DNA from: Planctomycetaceae bacterium
Lineage (GTDB): Bacteria; Planctomycetota; Planctomycetia; Planctomycetales; Planctomycetaceae
Length of the DNA stretch: 32,896 bases
Assembly: GCA_015485495.1 (NCBI GenBank)
Contig: WFTL01000047.1
Location: 1-32,896, forward strand
Direction: 5' to 3'
Of the stretch, positions 21,833 to 29,836 are shown piece by piece; position 1 is the stretch's first letter, and each line of letters begins with the position of its first letter. Position numbers and translations under genes: made by a program. The notes beneath the pieces were generated by a model that was not told where the DNA came from, ran no database searches, and saw nothing but the letters and a program-made list of their open reading frames with translations.

Positions 21833-23029
21833 TCAGTCGTCTTCGGTCATTCCATTCCAGTCCGGAGGCAGTTTCAGAACCCAGACGTCGCTGGTCAGAG
21901 GTCGTGCATGTCCGCCGGCGATCCAAAGCGCATCGTCGAATACGAATGCCGAATGTTCGTGCCGGGCCTTCCACTGCGTTCTGGTTCTCAGTTGCTTCCA
22001 GCGTTTTCCATCCCGCGAAAACCACGCGTCACCGTGATTTTCGGACGGATCTCCGGACCAGCCGCCCAGAACCCACAGGAAACCTCGATACGCCACGCTG
22101 GAAAACCAAAGGCGCGGATGCCAGGGCGCCGCACTGGTCTCCTGTCGCCACTTCCGTCCGTCGGGCGAACTCCACACGTCGCTGACGGCGTGATACTCCG
22201 GAACGTAGTTTCCGCCGCCCAGTACGTACATGCGATCGTTCAGCACGACCGCCTGATGGTAGGCCCGGGGCGACCAGGGAGCCGTTTTCGCCATCTGCTG
22301 CCACACGCGTCCATCGGACGAAGCCCACACATCGTTTCGCAGGCTGCTGCCATCACCGAAGTAATAGTTTTCTGTTCCTCCCAGAATCCACATCCGATCA
22401 CGGAAGACGACCGCTCCGGCAGCCAGCCGCGGAGACCAGCCGGCCTGCGCGGTTTCTTCCTTCCAGTGGACACCGTCTTCAGAAGACCAGACCGAATTCG
22501 ACGCGGAATGCCCCGGCAGACGTCCATTGTACCAGCCGCCCATCATCCACATCCGCCCGCCGAATGTCAGGGACATCGACAGATCGCTGTGTTTCCAGGG
22601 AGCCTCTTTCGTCACCTGCTGCCAGTGCACGCCGTCCGAAGAACTCCACACGTCCCGCGGCGGCGCTTCCCACGAAGTCATCCAGCCTCCCAGAATCCAC
22701 AGCCGATCGCCGAACACGAGTTCTCCCTGGGAATCGCGCGGCGACCATCCGGCTGCCGCCGTCACCTGCTGCCAGTCGATGGTCTCGTCGACCGCTGCTG
22801 ACCGATCTGCCGCCCGCGTCGATTCGCCGGACGGAATTCCCGCCAGCAGCACCGCACAAAACATGATCACCAGGCCGCTCGGACAAAGGTTCCTGGTGCA
22901 GCGAAGGGCACCGACTGACAAACCGACTGACAACCTGTGCAGAAGACGGGGCCGGAGATGCTTTGCGGGGGCGGCCGCAGAGAGCGTCTGGGGCGTTCCT
23001 GGTCGCATGATGTTGCGTATGAGAGGCAT
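21833..23029 (-). CDS. Secreted Kelch-repeat beta-propeller, last gene of the Idr-like operon
   Basis: The 398-residue protein has an unusually long basic N-terminus followed by a hydrophobic stretch (LVIMFCAVLLAGIPSG, near residue 52), so export by a signal peptide is likely. The rest consists of about six repeats of the form APW-x-PR, then V-x-x-DR-x-W-x-LGG, then DVWSSxDGxxWxxxT, a Kelch-type motif with conserved Gly-Gly and Trp. It should fold as a six-bladed propeller in the periplasm or outside. Start ATG 23029 has an AGGA eight to nine bases upstream. It lies 40 bases after the idrA-like gene on the same strand, so it is probably cotranscribed. No role in oxyanion reduction is known to me; a scaffold or sugar-binding function is conceivable. 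Confidence 0.83.
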   Translation of the reverse strand: MPLIRNIMRPGTPQTLSAAAPAKHLRPRLLHRLSVGLSVGALRCTRNLCPSGLVIMFCAVLLAGIPSGESTRAADRSAAVDETIDWQQVTAAAGWSPRDSQGELVFGDRLWILGGWMTSWEAPPRDVWSSSDGVHWQQVTKEAPWKHSDLSMSLTFGGRMWMMGGWYNGRLPGHSASNSVWSSEDGVHWKEETAQAGWSPRLAAGAVVFRDRMWILGGTENYYFGDGSSLRNDVWASSDGRVWQQMAKTAPWSPRAYHQAVVLNDRMYVLGGGNYVPEYHAVSDVWSSPDGRKWRQETSAAPWHPRLWFSSVAYRGFLWVLGGWSGDPSENHGDAWFSRDGKRWKQLRTRTQWKARHEHSAFVFDDALWIAGGHARPLTSDVWVLKLPPDWNGMTEDD

Positions 23030-23069: not shown

Positions 23070-25784
23070 TCACATGATGTCGCGCTGCCGAAAACTCATC
23101 TGCTTCAGGTCATGCTTCAGCGGTGATTCCGAAAGACGCGTCACACGGCCCTTTCCAAGTTTGAAACGGTAGCGATTCGTGATGGGGTCCGGAACCCGAT
23201 GGACGACGCTGTTGGGAGGCTGCGTGGCGTTCAGCGCATTACTCCAGACAACTCCCGGCCGGATGGCGGTCGTCACGATGGCCACGCCTTCATACCGGCC
23301 GGTGCCGATGCGAATCTGTCCGGCGTTCATCAGCCCGCTGAAACTCTGACTGCCCTTCTCGACTCCCACGAAGCCGCCGGTCTGAATGAGAACATCCCGG
23401 TTTTCCACAGCGACCAGATCACCGGTTTCGATGCCCCGGGGCTGAGCGTCATCGGGATGGATCTCCACGAACTGCATCGGCCAGCGGTCGCGCAGGTACT
23501 TTGTTCTCAGAGCATCGAAGCCGGTCTGCCAGATTTCGTTGATCCGCCCCATGGTGACCCACAGTTCATCGCCCTGCGGACGAATCCGTTCATAGAAATC
23601 CGAAAACTCCTCCCAGGGGGTTTTGTGGAGCAGTCCTTTGCCGCTGTGCGAACGAAAGGCACTCAGCCATTTCATGTGAACGGTCGGCCCTTCCGGCTGT
23701 CCGAAGTCGGTCTCGGCATCGTGCAGCCGCTTCGTCCCGATGATGGCTCCCGCCACCGACGGATCATCCACATAACCGGCGTAGTCGCGGTACGCCTGCG
23801 ATTCCGTCAGGGTTCGGCGCCAGCGGACAGGAGTCTGAATGCCGGTTGTTCCCAGGCGTCGCAAAAGCTCATGTCCGGTCAGGCCCATCCGGTGCGCGTA
23901 CACGACCAGCGGGTGATAATTGAGAATGCTGCGTCGGCCGGAACGCGCCGCCTGATCGAAGACGTCACTGCCGGATTTCCATTCGTAGTCGCGAAATCCC
24001 ATTTTCTGAGCGAACTGAGAAATGATCCACCAGTCCGGCCGGGCTTCACCAGGAGGATCACAGAACTTCGGATACAGTCTCAGCCGACGTTCCCCGTTGC
24101 AGCGGGTGAAATCGTCTTCTCCCCAGGTGGCTGCCGGCAGCACCAGATCGGCAAATTCCGTCCCGATGGGTGCCACGGGATAGATGTCCTGATGCACCAC
24201 CACCATTCCGCCCGAATCCACGCGTCGCTTCAGGCTCTGCACGGCCTGGGCGACTCTGGCGGACGTGATCTGATGGTCCGATCCGCGGGTGAGGCGGCGG
24301 AAGGTGTCCATGAGTTCCTGGCTGGCGGCCATCGCCTGTGTCCAGGTGGTGCCGATCACCCAGGCGAAACGCAGGTGGCCCGATTCGACCCAGCGGTCCA
24401 GGTCGATTTCCTTTCGGCGCCGGCCCACCTGCTTTTCGGGAGAAAACACTCGCGGATACGCTTCGGCTCCATACCATCCGCGCTGGTGCCCGCCCATCCG
24501 CGAAACGACTCTTCCGGGACGATTCCCGGCACCGCACAAAAGAGCCAGACTGGAGTAACTGGCCGTGTTCAGGTAGTTGTTGCTCCAGTAGTTGCCTTTC
24601 TCCAGAGCGAACGATGCTTTGGGCCGGCGACCGTCGACGGGCCGGGCGATCATTTCCGCCGCCGCCAGAATCTTTTTCGCCGGTATGCCCGTGACCGATG
24701 CTGCTGAGGACAGTTCCGCGTCCGGATTGTTCAGGATCCAGTCCCGGTATTCCTCGAAGGACGCTCCGAACCGTCCCCACGTCGTGCGCCACTGCCACGG
24801 TGTGTTCCGTGTGCCGCGTCCGAATCCCGAATCGATCTCCCAGCGGCCGGCGATCCATCGATCGATGAATTCGGTGTCTTCCCAGCCGTTCTCCAGAATG
24901 ATGCGAGCCAGAGCCAGATGGAGGATCGTATCGGTGCCGGGAATGATCTGCAGAAACAGGCCGCCGCTGGCTTCGGCCCAGGCGACTCCCGTGGTTCGCC
25001 GCGGCAGCACATAGATGTGGCGGATTCCCGGACGCATCATCCATTCCGTCCAGGCCACGGTTTTCGTTTCGTACGGATCGGTTCCGGAAAAGAAGATCAC
25101 GTCTGCCTGCGACCAGTCGTCATAAGACGCGCTGAACGGCACGATGCCGGCATCATCCAGACCGGCGGTGTCGTTGCCCGGTCCGGGTTTGTCATGAGGA
25201 GCCCAGGCGGGTGTCTGAATCGTTTCGAATGCCAGACGGGAAATGGCCCACGTGTTTTCAAAGAACTGATACGAGTACGTCTTCATTCCCCAGGCCGACC
25301 GGCCATGCCGGTCCAGCACGTAGCGGCTGATCTGAGCGAGAATGTCGATGGCGTCGTCCCAGGAAATCGGCCGGAGCTTTCCGTGCACACGCAGCAGCGG
25401 GCGGGTCAGGCGATCCTGCGTGGCCCCTTCCGGATCCCATGGTTTCTGAGCCAGACAGCCACCGCGGATCGAATGATTTCCACCAGGGTTCACCACGGTC
25501 GCATCAGGATCCGGAAGGACCACCAGGTGATGGCGCCGGCCGTCCACCATGCAGTGACCGTGCTGATTGGGGCTGATCCAGCGGCCGGACGCTTCGTCCA
25601 CCGGATAATCGACTCCCAATGCATTCTCAGCGGCTGCCGGGCCTCCCTGAGTCCCTTCCGGCCACACCCAGACGCGGTAACCGCAGCCCACGATGCAGTA
25701 ATCACAGGCCGTGGACACACTGACCGCATCCGGCGGAGGCAGCGGAACGGAATCGGGAAGGACCGAATCATCCTGGCGGGACAT
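23070..25784 (-). CDS. idrA: AioA/IdrA-type molybdopterin oxidoreductase large subunit (candidate iodate reductase)
   Basis: A 904-residue enzyme of the DMSO-reductase superfamily that should carry Mo-bis-molybdopterin guanine dinucleotide and an iron-sulfur cluster. Cys27, Cys30, Cys34 and Ser105 give exactly CX2CX3CX70S, the 3Fe-4S motif of arsenite oxidase AioA and iodate reductase IdrA. Further family segments are TPAWAPHDKPGPGND near residue 191, SGTDPYETKT near 233, SRMGGHQRGW near 428 and TEFADLVLPAATW near 570. His197, Arg429 and His433 match substrate-site residues of AioA, but AioA's Glu is Asp205 here and the HQEG motif reads HQRG. No signal peptide: export presumably rides on the Tat signal of the Rieske partner 13 bases upstream. 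The nearby peroxidases favour IdrA over AioA. ATG 25784 avoids overlap with the Rieske gene. Confidence 0.85.
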   Translation of the reverse strand: MSRQDDSVLPDSVPLPPPDAVSVSTACDYCIVGCGYRVWVWPEGTQGGPAAAENALGVDYPVDEASGRWISPNQHGHCMVDGRRHHLVVLPDPDATVVNPGGNHSIRGGCLAQKPWDPEGATQDRLTRPLLRVHGKLRPISWDDAIDILAQISRYVLDRHGRSAWGMKTYSYQFFENTWAISRLAFETIQTPAWAPHDKPGPGNDTAGLDDAGIVPFSASYDDWSQADVIFFSGTDPYETKTVAWTEWMMRPGIRHIYVLPRRTTGVAWAEASGGLFLQIIPGTDTILHLALARIILENGWEDTEFIDRWIAGRWEIDSGFGRGTRNTPWQWRTTWGRFGASFEEYRDWILNNPDAELSSAASVTGIPAKKILAAAEMIARPVDGRRPKASFALEKGNYWSNNYLNTASYSSLALLCGAGNRPGRVVSRMGGHQRGWYGAEAYPRVFSPEKQVGRRRKEIDLDRWVESGHLRFAWVIGTTWTQAMAASQELMDTFRRLTRGSDHQITSARVAQAVQSLKRRVDSGGMVVVHQDIYPVAPIGTEFADLVLPAATWGEDDFTRCNGERRLRLYPKFCDPPGEARPDWWIISQFAQKMGFRDYEWKSGSDVFDQAARSGRRSILNYHPLVVYAHRMGLTGHELLRRLGTTGIQTPVRWRRTLTESQAYRDYAGYVDDPSVAGAIIGTKRLHDAETDFGQPEGPTVHMKWLSAFRSHSGKGLLHKTPWEEFSDFYERIRPQGDELWVTMGRINEIWQTGFDALRTKYLRDRWPMQFVEIHPDDAQPRGIETGDLVAVENRDVLIQTGGFVGVEKGSQSFSGLMNAGQIRIGTGRYEGVAIVTTAIRPGVVWSNALNATQPPNSVVHRVPDPITNRYRFKLGKGRVTRLSESPLKHDLKQMSFRQRDIM

Positions 25785-25797
25785 CAGATGCAGTCTT

Positions 25798-26376
25798 TCA
25801 GACGGGAGAGAGGAACTGGTCGTTGCGGGAACGTCCGTACAGAAGCCCGGCGATTCCCACGGCCACCACGTCGTCACCGTCCGATTCCAGAAGAATCTGG
25901 GGGAGCGCCTGCGTGGCATGGCCGGCCACCACCATCCCATGGCGGGTGACATCGAACGTCGTCAGGTGCAGCGGACAGGGACCCACCACTTTGTGCCGAG
26001 AACGGTATTCCTGTTCGAGTGATCCTCCCAGATGCGTGCAGCGGCAGCTGAACGCCACCACGTCCTGATCAGCGCCGATCCCGCCTCCGGAACGTTCTCC
26101 GGTTCGCACCAGCATGCAGACCGACAGATCGGAATCATCCGGATACCGGAAATACACGGGCTGGTCGATCTGCAGTTCCGACAGACGGCCCACCTTCTGC
26201 CGCGGCAGATGAACCACCCGAACCGACCGGTTCTCGTCTTCACTGAATACCCGGTTCGGAAACAGGACTCCCAGCGTCACCGTGGTCACAGCAGCGGATG
26301 CTTCCAGAAAATGTCGTCGTGAGCATCCAACACTGGTCGGCCGGCAGACGGAATGCGACTGATCGGGGGAAACCAT
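25798..26376 (-). CDS. idrB: Rieske iron-sulfur subunit with Tat signal (AioB/IdrB-like)
   Basis: The 192-residue protein is the small electron-transfer subunit of the AioA/IdrA-type enzyme. Its N-terminus has a twin-arginine motif (SRRHFLE, residues 19-25) and a hydrophobic stretch, so it is exported folded and probably carries the large subunit along. The Rieske boxes are Cys113-T-His115-L-G-G and Cys134-P-L-His137, ligating a 2Fe-2S cluster. The two extra Cys that form a disulfide in many Rieske proteins are Gly118 and Leu136 here, so there is no bridge, as in some AioB proteins. The end GIAGLLYGR is a hallmark of AioB/IdrB. ATG 26376 has AAAAGG eight bases upstream. It lies 21 bases after the peroxidase gene and 13 before the large subunit. 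Confidence 0.9.
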   Translation of the reverse strand: MVSPDQSHSVCRPTSVGCSRRHFLEASAAVTTVTLGVLFPNRVFSEDENRSVRVVHLPRQKVGRLSELQIDQPVYFRYPDDSDLSVCMLVRTGERSGGGIGADQDVVAFSCRCTHLGGSLEQEYRSRHKVVGPCPLHLTTFDVTRHGMVVAGHATQALPQILLESDGDDVVAVGIAGLLYGRSRNDQFLSPV

Positions 26377-26397: not shown

Positions 26398-27732
26398 TCA
26401 GAATCCGGATTCCTGCCGGGCGATCGGCTGCTGTACTTCGTACTCCGGAAGAATCGGCACATTCATGCGGATTTCGGAACCACTGAGCGAGTAGAGGAAT
26501 TCAGCCAGATCCGCCTGTTCATCGTTCGACAGGTTCAGCGGCCGGATGAGCGGGCTTTGGTTCGGATCGTCACCGCCGCCCCGATTGTAGAAGGCGATGA
26601 CTTCTTCGATTTCCGAGAAGACGCCGTTGTGCATGTACGGTGCCGTGTATTCCAGGTACCGCAGACCCGGAGTTCGGAAGCGTCCCCGGTCTGCGTCGCG
26701 CCCGGTTGTGTAGTACAGTCCCAGATCGCGGTCCGCGTGCCGATACACATCTTCAGGAACGCCGCGAATGGAGTGCTGGTATCGGAGCGACACCTGCCGG
26801 AGCGGATCCATGCGGAACACCTCATTCTGCGGCACGTCCAGGTAGTGGTAGTCTTCGTCACTCATCAAAGGCCCGTTGTGGCAGCGGATGCAGCCGGCAC
26901 GGCCTTCAAACAGGGCCAGGCCCCGGCGAGCCGCTTCAGAAAGTGCCTGTTCGTCGCCGGCCAGGAACCGGTCGAACGGACTGTCCCGCGAAATGAGTTC
27001 CTGCCGTTCAAAACTGGCAATCGCCCTGAGAACCAGAGGAAACGTCGGACGGTCCACACCGAACGCCTCCCGAAACAACGCCACGTATTCGGGAATCTGG
27101 GCCAGGCGTTCTTCAATCATGGCCGGATCCCCGTTGCCGGCCAGATTGCCCGTGATGGCGCTTTTCGCCTGAGCTTCCAGGCTGGGCGCTTCACCGGCCC
27201 AGAACAACCGGGAATAAAAGGCCGCATTGACCGTCGTCTGGGAGTTGCGCCAGTGCTGAGTCCCCGCATACCCGCGAGAAACTCCCTGACCGTCGCCCCA
27301 GCCCAGACGCGGGTCGTGACAGGACGCACAACTGGTCCCCAGATCGCCCGACAGGCGATTGTCGAAAAACAACAGCCGTCCCAGGGCAACCTTCGCTTCA
27401 TTCAGCGGGTTGTCGGCGGGCACCGGGACGTCCGGCAGTGGTGCCAGAGCCGGCCACGAGCCGGTCCGGCTGCCGTCAGAACCTTCCGACCGGTGATCGC
27501 TCCGTTCGGAAACGTCGCCGCTGTGGTCCGTGCGTTCGCCCGCAGATTCCGATTCCGACGGCCGTTCGGACTGCTGCGCCGCTGCGGCATCTTCGGAATC
27601 CGCCTGCGGCCCGGCCGCCGCGGTGTTGTTCTCGGAAGGTGGCGGCCCCGATTCCGATTCCCGACGTCCGCACCCTGATGCCGGAACGGACAGCAGCACC
27701 ACACAGATCAGCAGAAGGCGTCTTCCCGCCAT
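26398..27732 (-). CDS. Di-heme cytochrome c peroxidase lipoprotein (IdrP-like)
   Basis: The 444-residue protein begins with a lipoprotein signal (SVPASGC, Cys21), followed by an 80-residue acidic Ser/Glu/Gln-rich linker. The peroxidase domain has two heme c motifs, CASCH at 135-139 and CIRCH at 281-285, and TAPYMHNG near 367 with the Met ligand typical of the CcpA/MauG family. It should be anchored in the outer membrane or periplasm and reduce hydrogen peroxide with electrons from a small donor. In the described iodate-reduction clusters two such proteins, IdrP1 and IdrP2, are thought to remove peroxide released by iodate reduction; which of the two this is cannot be told. Its ATG shares an A with the stop of the preceding peroxidase gene (TGATG), implying translational coupling. 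Confidence 0.92.
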   Translation of the reverse strand: MAGRRLLLICVVLLSVPASGCGRRESESGPPPSENNTAAAGPQADSEDAAAAQQSERPSESESAGERTDHSGDVSERSDHRSEGSDGSRTGSWPALAPLPDVPVPADNPLNEAKVALGRLLFFDNRLSGDLGTSCASCHDPRLGWGDGQGVSRGYAGTQHWRNSQTTVNAAFYSRLFWAGEAPSLEAQAKSAITGNLAGNGDPAMIEERLAQIPEYVALFREAFGVDRPTFPLVLRAIASFERQELISRDSPFDRFLAGDEQALSEAARRGLALFEGRAGCIRCHNGPLMSDEDYHYLDVPQNEVFRMDPLRQVSLRYQHSIRGVPEDVYRHADRDLGLYYTTGRDADRGRFRTPGLRYLEYTAPYMHNGVFSEIEEVIAFYNRGGGDDPNQSPLIRPLNLSNDEQADLAEFLYSLSGSEIRMNVPILPEYEVQQPIARQESGF

Positions 27733-28937
27733 CAGTGAGTTTCCCCCGGTGAGCGCAGTTCGTACGAAGGCAGTTCAGGACGAGGTTCATCCGGCAGGGT
27801 TCCCGAAAGAGTTTCCAGAAACGCCACCAGGTCGCTTTGTTCCTCAGCACTCAGGTTCAGTGGTTTCAGAAACGGATCACGCGATGGACGCGGTCCGCCT
27901 CCCCGGTTGTAGAATTCCACCACTTCAGCCAGCGTGCCGATCTGGCCGTCATGCATGTAAGGCGCCGTGCGGGACACTTCCCGCAGTGTGGGTGTCCGTA
28001 TGCGTTCCATGTCTCCGGCGTCTTTGGTGACACACAGATGACCGGGATCCTGGCGGATGAGCCGGTAACCGGGAACTCCCAGAGTTCTCAGGAAACGGCG
28101 AAATGTGATGTGACGTTCCGGTTCCAGAAAAATGGCCGGTTCCGAAACAAGGCCCAGAGAATGGAAGCGGCCGTCTGACAGCATGGGACCGTCGTGACAG
28201 TGAATGCAGCGTGCCCTGCCGCGAAACAGTTTCAGCCCCCGCTGCGCCGATTCAGAAATCGCCTGGGTGTCACCGTTCAGAAACCGATCGAACGGCACGT
28301 CCTTCGAAGTCAACGAACGAACGAAAGCCGCCACGGCATTCAAAATCCGTCCGTAGGTCGGTTCGCCACCGAACACAGCACGGAATTCCGCTTCGTACAG
28401 CGGAACCTGACGCAGCCGTTCAATCACCAGCCGTCCGTCCGCCTGCATGAAATGCGCTTCGGAAATGTGGTCGCGGACCACCGTCGGCAGATCGTCGGCC
28501 GGCAGCCGCCCGTCCCAGTACAGAAAGCGTCCCAGAGCGGCATTCAGAACCGTGGGCGTGTTTCGGAAATACAGCGACCCGGGATACCCGCGGGAAAGTG
28601 CCAGACCGTCTGCCCAGCCGTGTTGCGGATCGTGGCAGGTGGCGCAGCTGATCGTGGCATCTCCGGAAAGACGAGGATCGAAAAACAGGCGTCTTCCCAG
28701 AGCCACCTGATCGGACGGCGGCGGCGGGATCACCTCAGGCAGCGGTGCCAGCGGACGCGGCTGAGCATGCGCCGGCGGGATCCCCCAGACAAGCCCCGCC
28801 AGCAGGGCTGTCAGCCAGACGGCCGGTCCCGGCAGAATATTCGTGCCACCGGCACGTCTGTGCTGTCCGATGATCGGACGAAAACGGACATGGCAGGTGC
28901 GAATGCCGCAAAAGTGTGACGAATGGCTGTCCCGCAT
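27732..28937 (-). CDS. Di-heme cytochrome c peroxidase (IdrP-like), second copy
   Basis: A 401-residue secreted protein whose hydrophobic signal core (GPAVWLTALLAGLVWGIPPAHA, residues about 37-58) follows an extended n-region. Two heme c motifs are CATCH at 98-102 and CIHCH at 244-248, and APYMHDG with Met328 is the family's extra axial ligand site. It resembles the product of the next gene over its whole peroxidase domain, so the pair is an old duplication or two specialised partners (IdrP1 and IdrP2). ATG 28937 overlaps the stop of the cupredoxin gene as TGATG. The frame remains open further upstream, but that extension lies inside the cupredoxin gene and is rejected. Hydrogen peroxide is the expected substrate; a role in the Idr-like system is inferred from the operon. 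Confidence 0.92.
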   Translation of the reverse strand: MRDSHSSHFCGIRTCHVRFRPIIGQHRRAGGTNILPGPAVWLTALLAGLVWGIPPAHAQPRPLAPLPEVIPPPPSDQVALGRRLFFDPRLSGDATISCATCHDPQHGWADGLALSRGYPGSLYFRNTPTVLNAALGRFLYWDGRLPADDLPTVVRDHISEAHFMQADGRLVIERLRQVPLYEAEFRAVFGGEPTYGRILNAVAAFVRSLTSKDVPFDRFLNGDTQAISESAQRGLKLFRGRARCIHCHDGPMLSDGRFHSLGLVSEPAIFLEPERHITFRRFLRTLGVPGYRLIRQDPGHLCVTKDAGDMERIRTPTLREVSRTAPYMHDGQIGTLAEVVEFYNRGGGPRPSRDPFLKPLNLSAEEQSDLVAFLETLSGTLPDEPRPELPSYELRSPGETH

Positions 28938-29836
28938 CAGTCTGAAAACACCAGGTCGTGGCGAGTCACCTGTCCGGCTGCGATGTCCACACGAAATCGC
29001 TGTCGTCCCAGAACAGAATGGCTCACCAATCCACGGATCTGCGTGCCGGGCGGAATTTCTTCGATGGTGAAGGAACCGTCTTTTCCCGACATGGCCACCA
29101 GTGGAGACCGGGCCACGTAGACCCATGATTCCATCCAGCCATGAATGTTGCAGGTGACCCGCATGAACGGAGTGCCGGAATACCGGATCTGCCGGCGAAT
29201 CGGCTGCCCGCCCGGCGACTGAAGAAGATTCCACGATCCCGTGTTCACATTGTGCTGCACGGGATCGTCGTTGTACACGGTCAGTTCAGCGCCGTCCCAC
29301 GCCAGCAGCAGCCGCGGGGAGAAGCGACAGTTTTTCTGCCGCAGCACAAAACCGCCTTCAGGAGTGACGAACTTTCCGGCCTCTGAACCGCGTACCGACA
29401 GTTCAATGATCGCTCCGGCCAGTCGGCCATCGTGAACCACGACATCCTGAACCTCACCGGCGCCGGCCGAACAGATTTCCGGATCCTTGTTCGGCTGAAT
29501 GATGCGAGGTTCCGGCAGAGTGCCTTCGAACGAAACGACGCCGGTCAGTGTTCCGGCAGGTGCGGCAGACTGCTGGTCATCGGAAGCAGGCGGCTGAGTG
29601 TCACCGGAAGCGGGCGCCGGATCATCCGGTCTGCCTGCACTGTTGTCCGCACTGCCTGGAACATCAACCGGTGTTCCGGCAGACGCCCGGTCCGCTGCCG
29701 CTGTCGACGAAGCTGTGTCCGAAGCGGAAGACGCAGATGCCCCATCACTCGGAGAGGAGCAGCCGACCATGCCAGCCAGGGCGATCAGGCCCGGCAGCAG
29801 CAGACAGTGCCGTCTGTTCACCGCATTCCTGTTCAC
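28937..29836 (-). CDS. Cupredoxin-like lipoprotein, first gene of the Idr-like operon
   Basis: The 299-residue product starts at GTG 29836 (GGGA eight bases upstream) and has a signal peptide with a probable lipoprotein Cys26 (AGMVGCSS). Residues 27-95 are a low-complexity Ser/Ala/Asp/Pro linker. The rest matches the methylamine-utilisation/carboxypeptidase-regulatory-like proteins found in planctomycetes. It has the ligand set of a type 1 copper site: His195 in DPVQHNV and Cys229-x2-His232-x2-Met235 in TCNIHGWM, the short loop known from amicyanin. An SFTIEEIPPGT segment near 255 is the following beta-sandwich. A blue-copper electron carrier for the Rieske/Mo enzyme is inferred. Gene order and TGATG overlap with the peroxidase gene show it belongs to the same operon. 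Confidence 0.85.
   Translation of the reverse strand: MNRNAVNRRHCLLLPGLIALAGMVGCSSPSDGASASSASDTASSTAAADRASAGTPVDVPGSADNSAGRPDDPAPASGDTQPPASDDQQSAAPAGTLTGVVSFEGTLPEPRIIQPNKDPEICSAGAGEVQDVVVHDGRLAGAIIELSVRGSEAGKFVTPEGGFVLRQKNCRFSPRLLLAWDGAELTVYNDDPVQHNVNTGSWNLLQSPGGQPIRRQIRYSGTPFMRVTCNIHGWMESWVYVARSPLVAMSGKDGSFTIEEIPPGTQIRGLVSHSVLGRQRFRVDIAAGQVTRHDLVFSD

Follow-up and report, generated by a model that had tools for sequence, protein, structure and literature searches.

The closest described systems are the idrABP1P2 loci of Denitromonas iodatirespirans IR-12, Pseudomonas sp. SCT, and Azoarcus sp. DN11. The gene order idrP2-idrP1-idrB-idrA is known from iodate reducers and is missing in aio loci (PMC8692401), the motif CX2CX3CX70S was given for IdrA of Azoarcus DN11 (PMC10149662), and IdrP1 and IdrP2 have been described as relatives of cytochrome c peroxidase with unclear function (PMC11445184). 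A deep-branching IdrA of Planctomycetaceae has already been published, and it falls in the same clade as the protein studied here although it belongs to another species; the text of that study mentions neither a residue signature nor a cupredoxin gene (PMC8692401).

Here, we analyzed a stretch of 32,896 nucleotides from a Planctomycetaceae bacterium (contig WFTL01000047.1, hereafter the window). The product of its idrA gene is probably the catalytic subunit of IdrAB, a molybdenum iodate reductase of the periplasm, and is encoded in a five-gene cupredoxin-idrP2-idrP1-idrB-idrA operon. It adds to the Planctomycetaceae IdrA already known, and what is added is a residue rule, a misannotation through TIGR02693, and a conserved cupredoxin gene.

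Organization of the idr operon

The five genes are listed in operon order, which on the minus strand runs from high to low coordinates.

28937..29836, minus strand: first operon gene, putative secreted or lipid-anchored cupredoxin in a transthyretin/CarboxypepD_reg-like domain
27732..28937, minus strand: idrP2, di-heme protein with two CxxCH motifs (PF03150, 9e-43), TGATG overlap at both ends
26398..27732, minus strand: idrP1, di-heme protein with two CxxCH motifs and a MauG-type axial Tyr382 (PF03150, 6e-45)
25798..26376, minus strand: idrB, Rieske [2Fe-2S] small subunit (TIGR02694, 110 bits)
23070..25784, minus strand: idrA, catalytic molybdopterin subunit of 904 aa (family matches, AF2 fold, and tree)

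The first two junctions are 1-base TGATG stop/start overlaps, and the other two are gaps of 21 and 13 bases. The idrP2 start was set at 28937 and not at 29234, the GTG of the longest ORF. The idrA frame is open across 23070..25952 (minus strand), and its start is most plausibly at 25784 (MSRQDDSV...), 13 bases past the idrB stop. No signal peptide was seen on IdrA itself; IdrB, as read by eye, carries a putative Tat-type signal, SRRHFLE followed by a hydrophobic stretch. The idrA-idrB-idrP1-idrP2 synteny is complete in the window, and the P2-P1-B-A order is as in known idrABP1P2 loci, which the putative Tat-type IdrB signal would also match. The window operon differs from them in starting with a cupredoxin gene and in the approximately 55% identity of its IdrA to that of IR-12.

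As a further difference, neither sigma-54/sensor kinase genes nor moaA nor a gene for cytochrome c were recognized adjoining the window operon. In some relatives from Nitrospinota, KSB1, and Desulfobacterales, the region downstream of idrA holds Rieske/cytochrome b genes, which fits a quinol electron source. A Kelch-repeat protein gene (21833-23029, minus strand) begins about 40 bases past idrA; it was rejected as a conserved operon part, no relative being found near idrA in any other locus. The idrA of L023 (JANSXP010000020.1) was at first sight an orphan, and this reading was rejected as well, with idrB, P1, P2, and the cupredoxin gene found on the same strand of that contig at a distance of about 12 kb. 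In L023 and G438:C73, the nearest relative, the operon is thus split, with cupredoxin-P2-P1-B about 12 kb from an idrA that adjoins an ABC transporter gene.

Family, fold, and phylogeny of IdrA

Window IdrA passed the NCBIfam model for the arsenite oxidase large subunit, TIGR02693, scoring 412.7 bits (cut-off 359), and it matched NT-26 AioA with an E value of 1.4e-81; no dedicated IdrA model was among its NCBIfam matches. Superposing a predicted structure on AioA had been proposed in the earlier note. The AF2 model (mean pLDDT 87.7) found A. faecalis AioA as its best structural match (Z 36.5, 2.2 Å, 763 residues, 30% identity), with the same overall fold, and nitrate reductases and formate dehydrogenases as weaker matches (Z about 30). 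Because of the E value, the TIGR02693 score, and the Z score, the likeness to AioA is not attributable to chance. The structurally solved AioA proteins (A. faecalis, 1g8k; NT-26, 4aay) share the fold and the [3Fe-4S] ligands with window IdrA.

A tree of 63 rows was built by the quick method of IQ-TREE and drawn with a midpoint root. Window IdrA paired with L023 (support 99) within a planctomycete IdrA clade and outside the AioA clade, all AioA rows lying on one side of a single branch (support 94). The IdrA clade includes the confirmed iodate reducers D. iodatirespirans IR-12 and Notoacmeibacter marinus, which sit in other subclades than window IdrA. Identity was 75-80% to other planctomycete IdrA proteins, those of metagenome bins included, about 55% to the confirmed Denitromonas IdrA, and about 30% to AioA.

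The idrA gene was not found in two genomes of the same genus, and only 3 other matches were obtained among 392 genomes of the phylum. A very divergent AioA/IdrA-like protein (L012, G016:C1104), from a genome of the same taxonomic family as the window, has a very long branch, combines His-Asp with Ser205 and HQKG, had no P1/P2 seen, and was left unplaced; it may be relevant to the transition between AioA and IdrA. A complete planctomycete genome holds an apparent remnant of an idr operon (L011, G020:C1:5655602-5659273), in which P2 and P1 are pieces interrupted by stops and idrA is reduced to its C-terminal quarter; idrB was not found in that genome.

Asp198 and Arg435 distinguish IdrA from AioA

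The cluster and pocket residues of window IdrA are encoded as follows.

25683..25706, minus strand: Cys27, Cys30, and Cys34 of the [3Fe-4S] motif, kept in 85/85 IdrA and 7/7 AioA
25470-25472, minus strand: Ser105 of the [3Fe-4S] motif
25191..25196, minus strand: His197-Asp198 (AioA: His-Asn), Asp198 in 86/86 and 14/14 IdrA, Asn in 16/16 AioA
25170..25172, minus strand: Asp205 (AioA Glu203), Asp in 76/86 and 2/14 IdrA, not diagnostic
24480..24500, minus strand: Arg429 ... His433-Gln434-Arg435 (AioA R..HQE), Arg435 in 85/86 and 14/14 IdrA, Glu in 16/16 AioA

The AioA-type cluster spacing claimed in the earlier note, Cys27-X2-Cys30-X3-Cys34-X70-Ser105, is exact in window IdrA, and all residues named there (the cluster Cys and Ser, His197, Asp205, Arg429, His433, and HQRG) are present under the numbers given. 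The note lists four substrate residues of A. faecalis AioA, His195, Glu203, Arg419, and His423; they were not found named together in the literature searched, and their positions rest on alignment, in which the 3-residue offset of the solved chain was taken into account. Window His197, Asp205, Arg429, His433, and HQRG (433-436) align with H195, E203, R419, H423, and HQEG, so that both enzymes have three of these four pocket residues in common.

Two samples were compared at these positions. The first comprised 86 IdrA-clade and 7 AioA proteins, aligned; the second was a family-profile draw, blind to these residues, from 369 genomes of the class that includes Denitromonas and yielded 9 AioA and 14 IdrA. 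In the first sample, IdrA had Asp198 in 86/86, Arg435 in 85/86 (one Cys), and Asp205 in 76/86, and AioA had Asn, Glu (position 435), and Glu (position 205) in 7/7. The second sample gave Asp198/Arg435 in all 14 IdrA, with Asp at 205 in only 2 and Ser in 12, and Asn/Glu/Glu in 9/9 AioA. When pooled (about 100 IdrA and 16 AioA, a few species possibly being common to both samples), Asp198 was found in 100/100 against Asn in 16/16 and Arg435 in 99/100 against Glu in 16/16. At the level of sequence, the pair Asp198 and Arg435 is diagnostic of IdrA versus AioA, and its role in a substrate switch is putative. Asp205 was rejected as a marker of iodate reductases, with Asp in 78/100 IdrA and Ser, Ala, or Pro in 22 of about 100. 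The proposal that the protein is not an AioA and fits iodate is therefore borne out by clade, operon, and residue signature but not by the Glu-to-Asp change on which it had leaned; the neighboring Asp198, overlooked there, is the better discriminator. An AioA with Asp and HQRG, which would have spoken against that proposal, was sought and was absent from the 16 AioA proteins and from the A. faecalis and NT-26 structures. In the 369-genome draw, P1/P2 were present in the 1.5-kb flanks of 11/14 IdrA-type matches and of 0/9 AioA.

Comparison with confirmed iodate reducers, also proposed in the earlier note, showed Asp198, Arg435, His197, Arg429, and His433 to be identical there; with the IdrA of the known idrABP1P2 systems, window IdrA shares the [3Fe-4S] motif, Asp198, Arg435, and Arg429/His433, as checked in IR-12. 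Since the tested isolates belong to other subclades, iodate activity of the window enzyme is something we infer. The same distance leaves room for an IdrA-like reductase of a deep subclade that would act, from the same operon, on another oxyanion or a non-iodate iodine species; the residues near position 205 are variable across the family and many of these lineages carry an extra operon gene, but the five residues shared with confirmed iodate reducers and the published synteny rule, which counts every carrier of idrABP1P2 as a likely iodate reducer (PMC8692401), make such a substrate unlikely. An arsenite oxidase of the AioB/AioA type, with a pocket that is slightly changed and with incidental neighbors, is a highly improbable reading: TIGR02693 and TIGR02694 are passed and the cluster motif is retained together with His197, Arg429, and His433, but the protein is far closer to planctomycete IdrA than to AioA, lacks Asn198/Glu205/Glu435, adjoins P1/P2, and lies outside the AioA clade.

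The public name "arsenate reductase (azurin)" is carried by these proteins because both AioA and IdrA pass TIGR02693. RefSeq names the plasmid IdrA of Azonexus (L018, NZ_CP151407.1) "arsenate reductase (azurin) large subunit".

A conserved gene for a predicted cupredoxin upstream of idrP2

Because of its TGATG overlap with idrP2, the first gene is translationally coupled to the idr island. Its product is predicted, from alignment and model, to be a cupredoxin with a type-1 copper ligand set, His195, Cys229, His232, and Met235, invariant in 28/28 aligned family members. In a profile search, the matches were a purple cupredoxin at E 0.0001 and amicyanin at E 0.001. In the AF2 model (pLDDT mostly >90 from residue 91), a cupredoxin domain (about 156-242) interrupts a transthyretin-like sandwich made up of residues about 90-155 and 243-299, and residues 156-242 matched known cupredoxins with Z 9-11 and rmsd 1.6-2.5. 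The His/Cys/His/Met cupredoxins amicyanin and plastocyanin resemble it, whereas that of the window is nested in the transthyretin-like domain.

Clustering of neighboring ORFs in 80 idr loci placed this family second after two-component regulators (30 loci, always on the idr strand), and in 27 of the 63 loci with enough sequence it was the gene immediately upstream of idrP2, these loci coming from Planctomycetota, Nitrospinota, Rokubacteria, Lindowbacteria, Hydrogenedentota, KSB1, Lentisphaerota, and Proteobacteria bins. The cultured iodate reducers lack it at this place, and no member adjoins the idr genes of Denitromonas, Azoarcus sp. Aa7, Notoacmeibacter, and Aliiroseovarius. Chance placement beside idrP2 is unlikely because only four other members occur in the 4.67 Mb genome of the window. 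Distances of IdrA and cupredoxin were correlated (Mantel r 0.71, 0/2000 permutations), which fits shared inheritance, to which host relatedness may contribute. Such a gene was unmentioned in the text of the open-access iodate papers searched.

Two further ideas were rejected. The family as a general partner of MauG-type genes found no support, as the four genomic paralogues had no P1/P2-like gene in their 1.5-kb flanks, and neither did an either/or relation between cupredoxin and small c-type cytochrome genes beside idr (cupredoxin alone in 23, cytochrome alone in 9, both in 5, neither in 22; Fisher p 0.37). Three loci with the upstream gene (L035, L097, L101) have another, shorter cupredoxin-like gene downstream of idrA, and three others have the downstream gene only (L079, L094, L100).

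The di-heme proteins IdrP1 and IdrP2

Both di-heme proteins have a MauG-type axial Tyr (FYNRGGG) and not the peroxidase Met; Tyr382 of IdrP1 aligns with Tyr294 of MauG, and a bacterial cytochrome c peroxidase has Met at the aligned position. A motif scan of P1/P2 homologues found Tyr in 134/140 and Met in 0/140, with one more FYG recognized by eye. The axial Tyr is shared with MauG/MbnH di-heme enzymes, and on these alignments it suggests a chemistry of the MauG/MbnH type and not of the cytochrome c peroxidase type. No methylamine dehydrogenase was seen with the window operon, unlike in MauG/amicyanin systems.

Proposed electron route and implications

As an iodate reductase, IdrAB would receive electrons from the quinol pool through a periplasmic carrier, perhaps the cupredoxin of the operon, and pass them from the Rieske cluster of IdrB through the [3Fe-4S] cluster of IdrA to the Mo-bisMGD, which would remove oxygen from iodate. 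His197, Arg429, and His433 are retained from the AioA pocket, and Asp198 and Arg435 in place of Asn and Glu would alter the pattern of charges around the substrate. Reactive by-products may be handled by IdrP1 and IdrP2. A tentative reading, to which we give slightly less than even weight, is that the idr operons of many uncultured lineages have an undescribed fifth part, a transthyretin-nested cupredoxin that delivers electrons to IdrAB or to the MauG-type IdrP1/IdrP2, and that the four-gene model describes only the cultured subclades, in which this part is missing.

The rule of Asp198/Arg435 versus Asn/Glu would correct how much arsenite oxidation and how much iodate reduction are estimated from metagenomes. 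The axial Tyr of IdrP1 and IdrP2 offers a lead on the role of the di-heme proteins, and the conserved cupredoxin gene is a testable lead on the electron route to iodate reductase.
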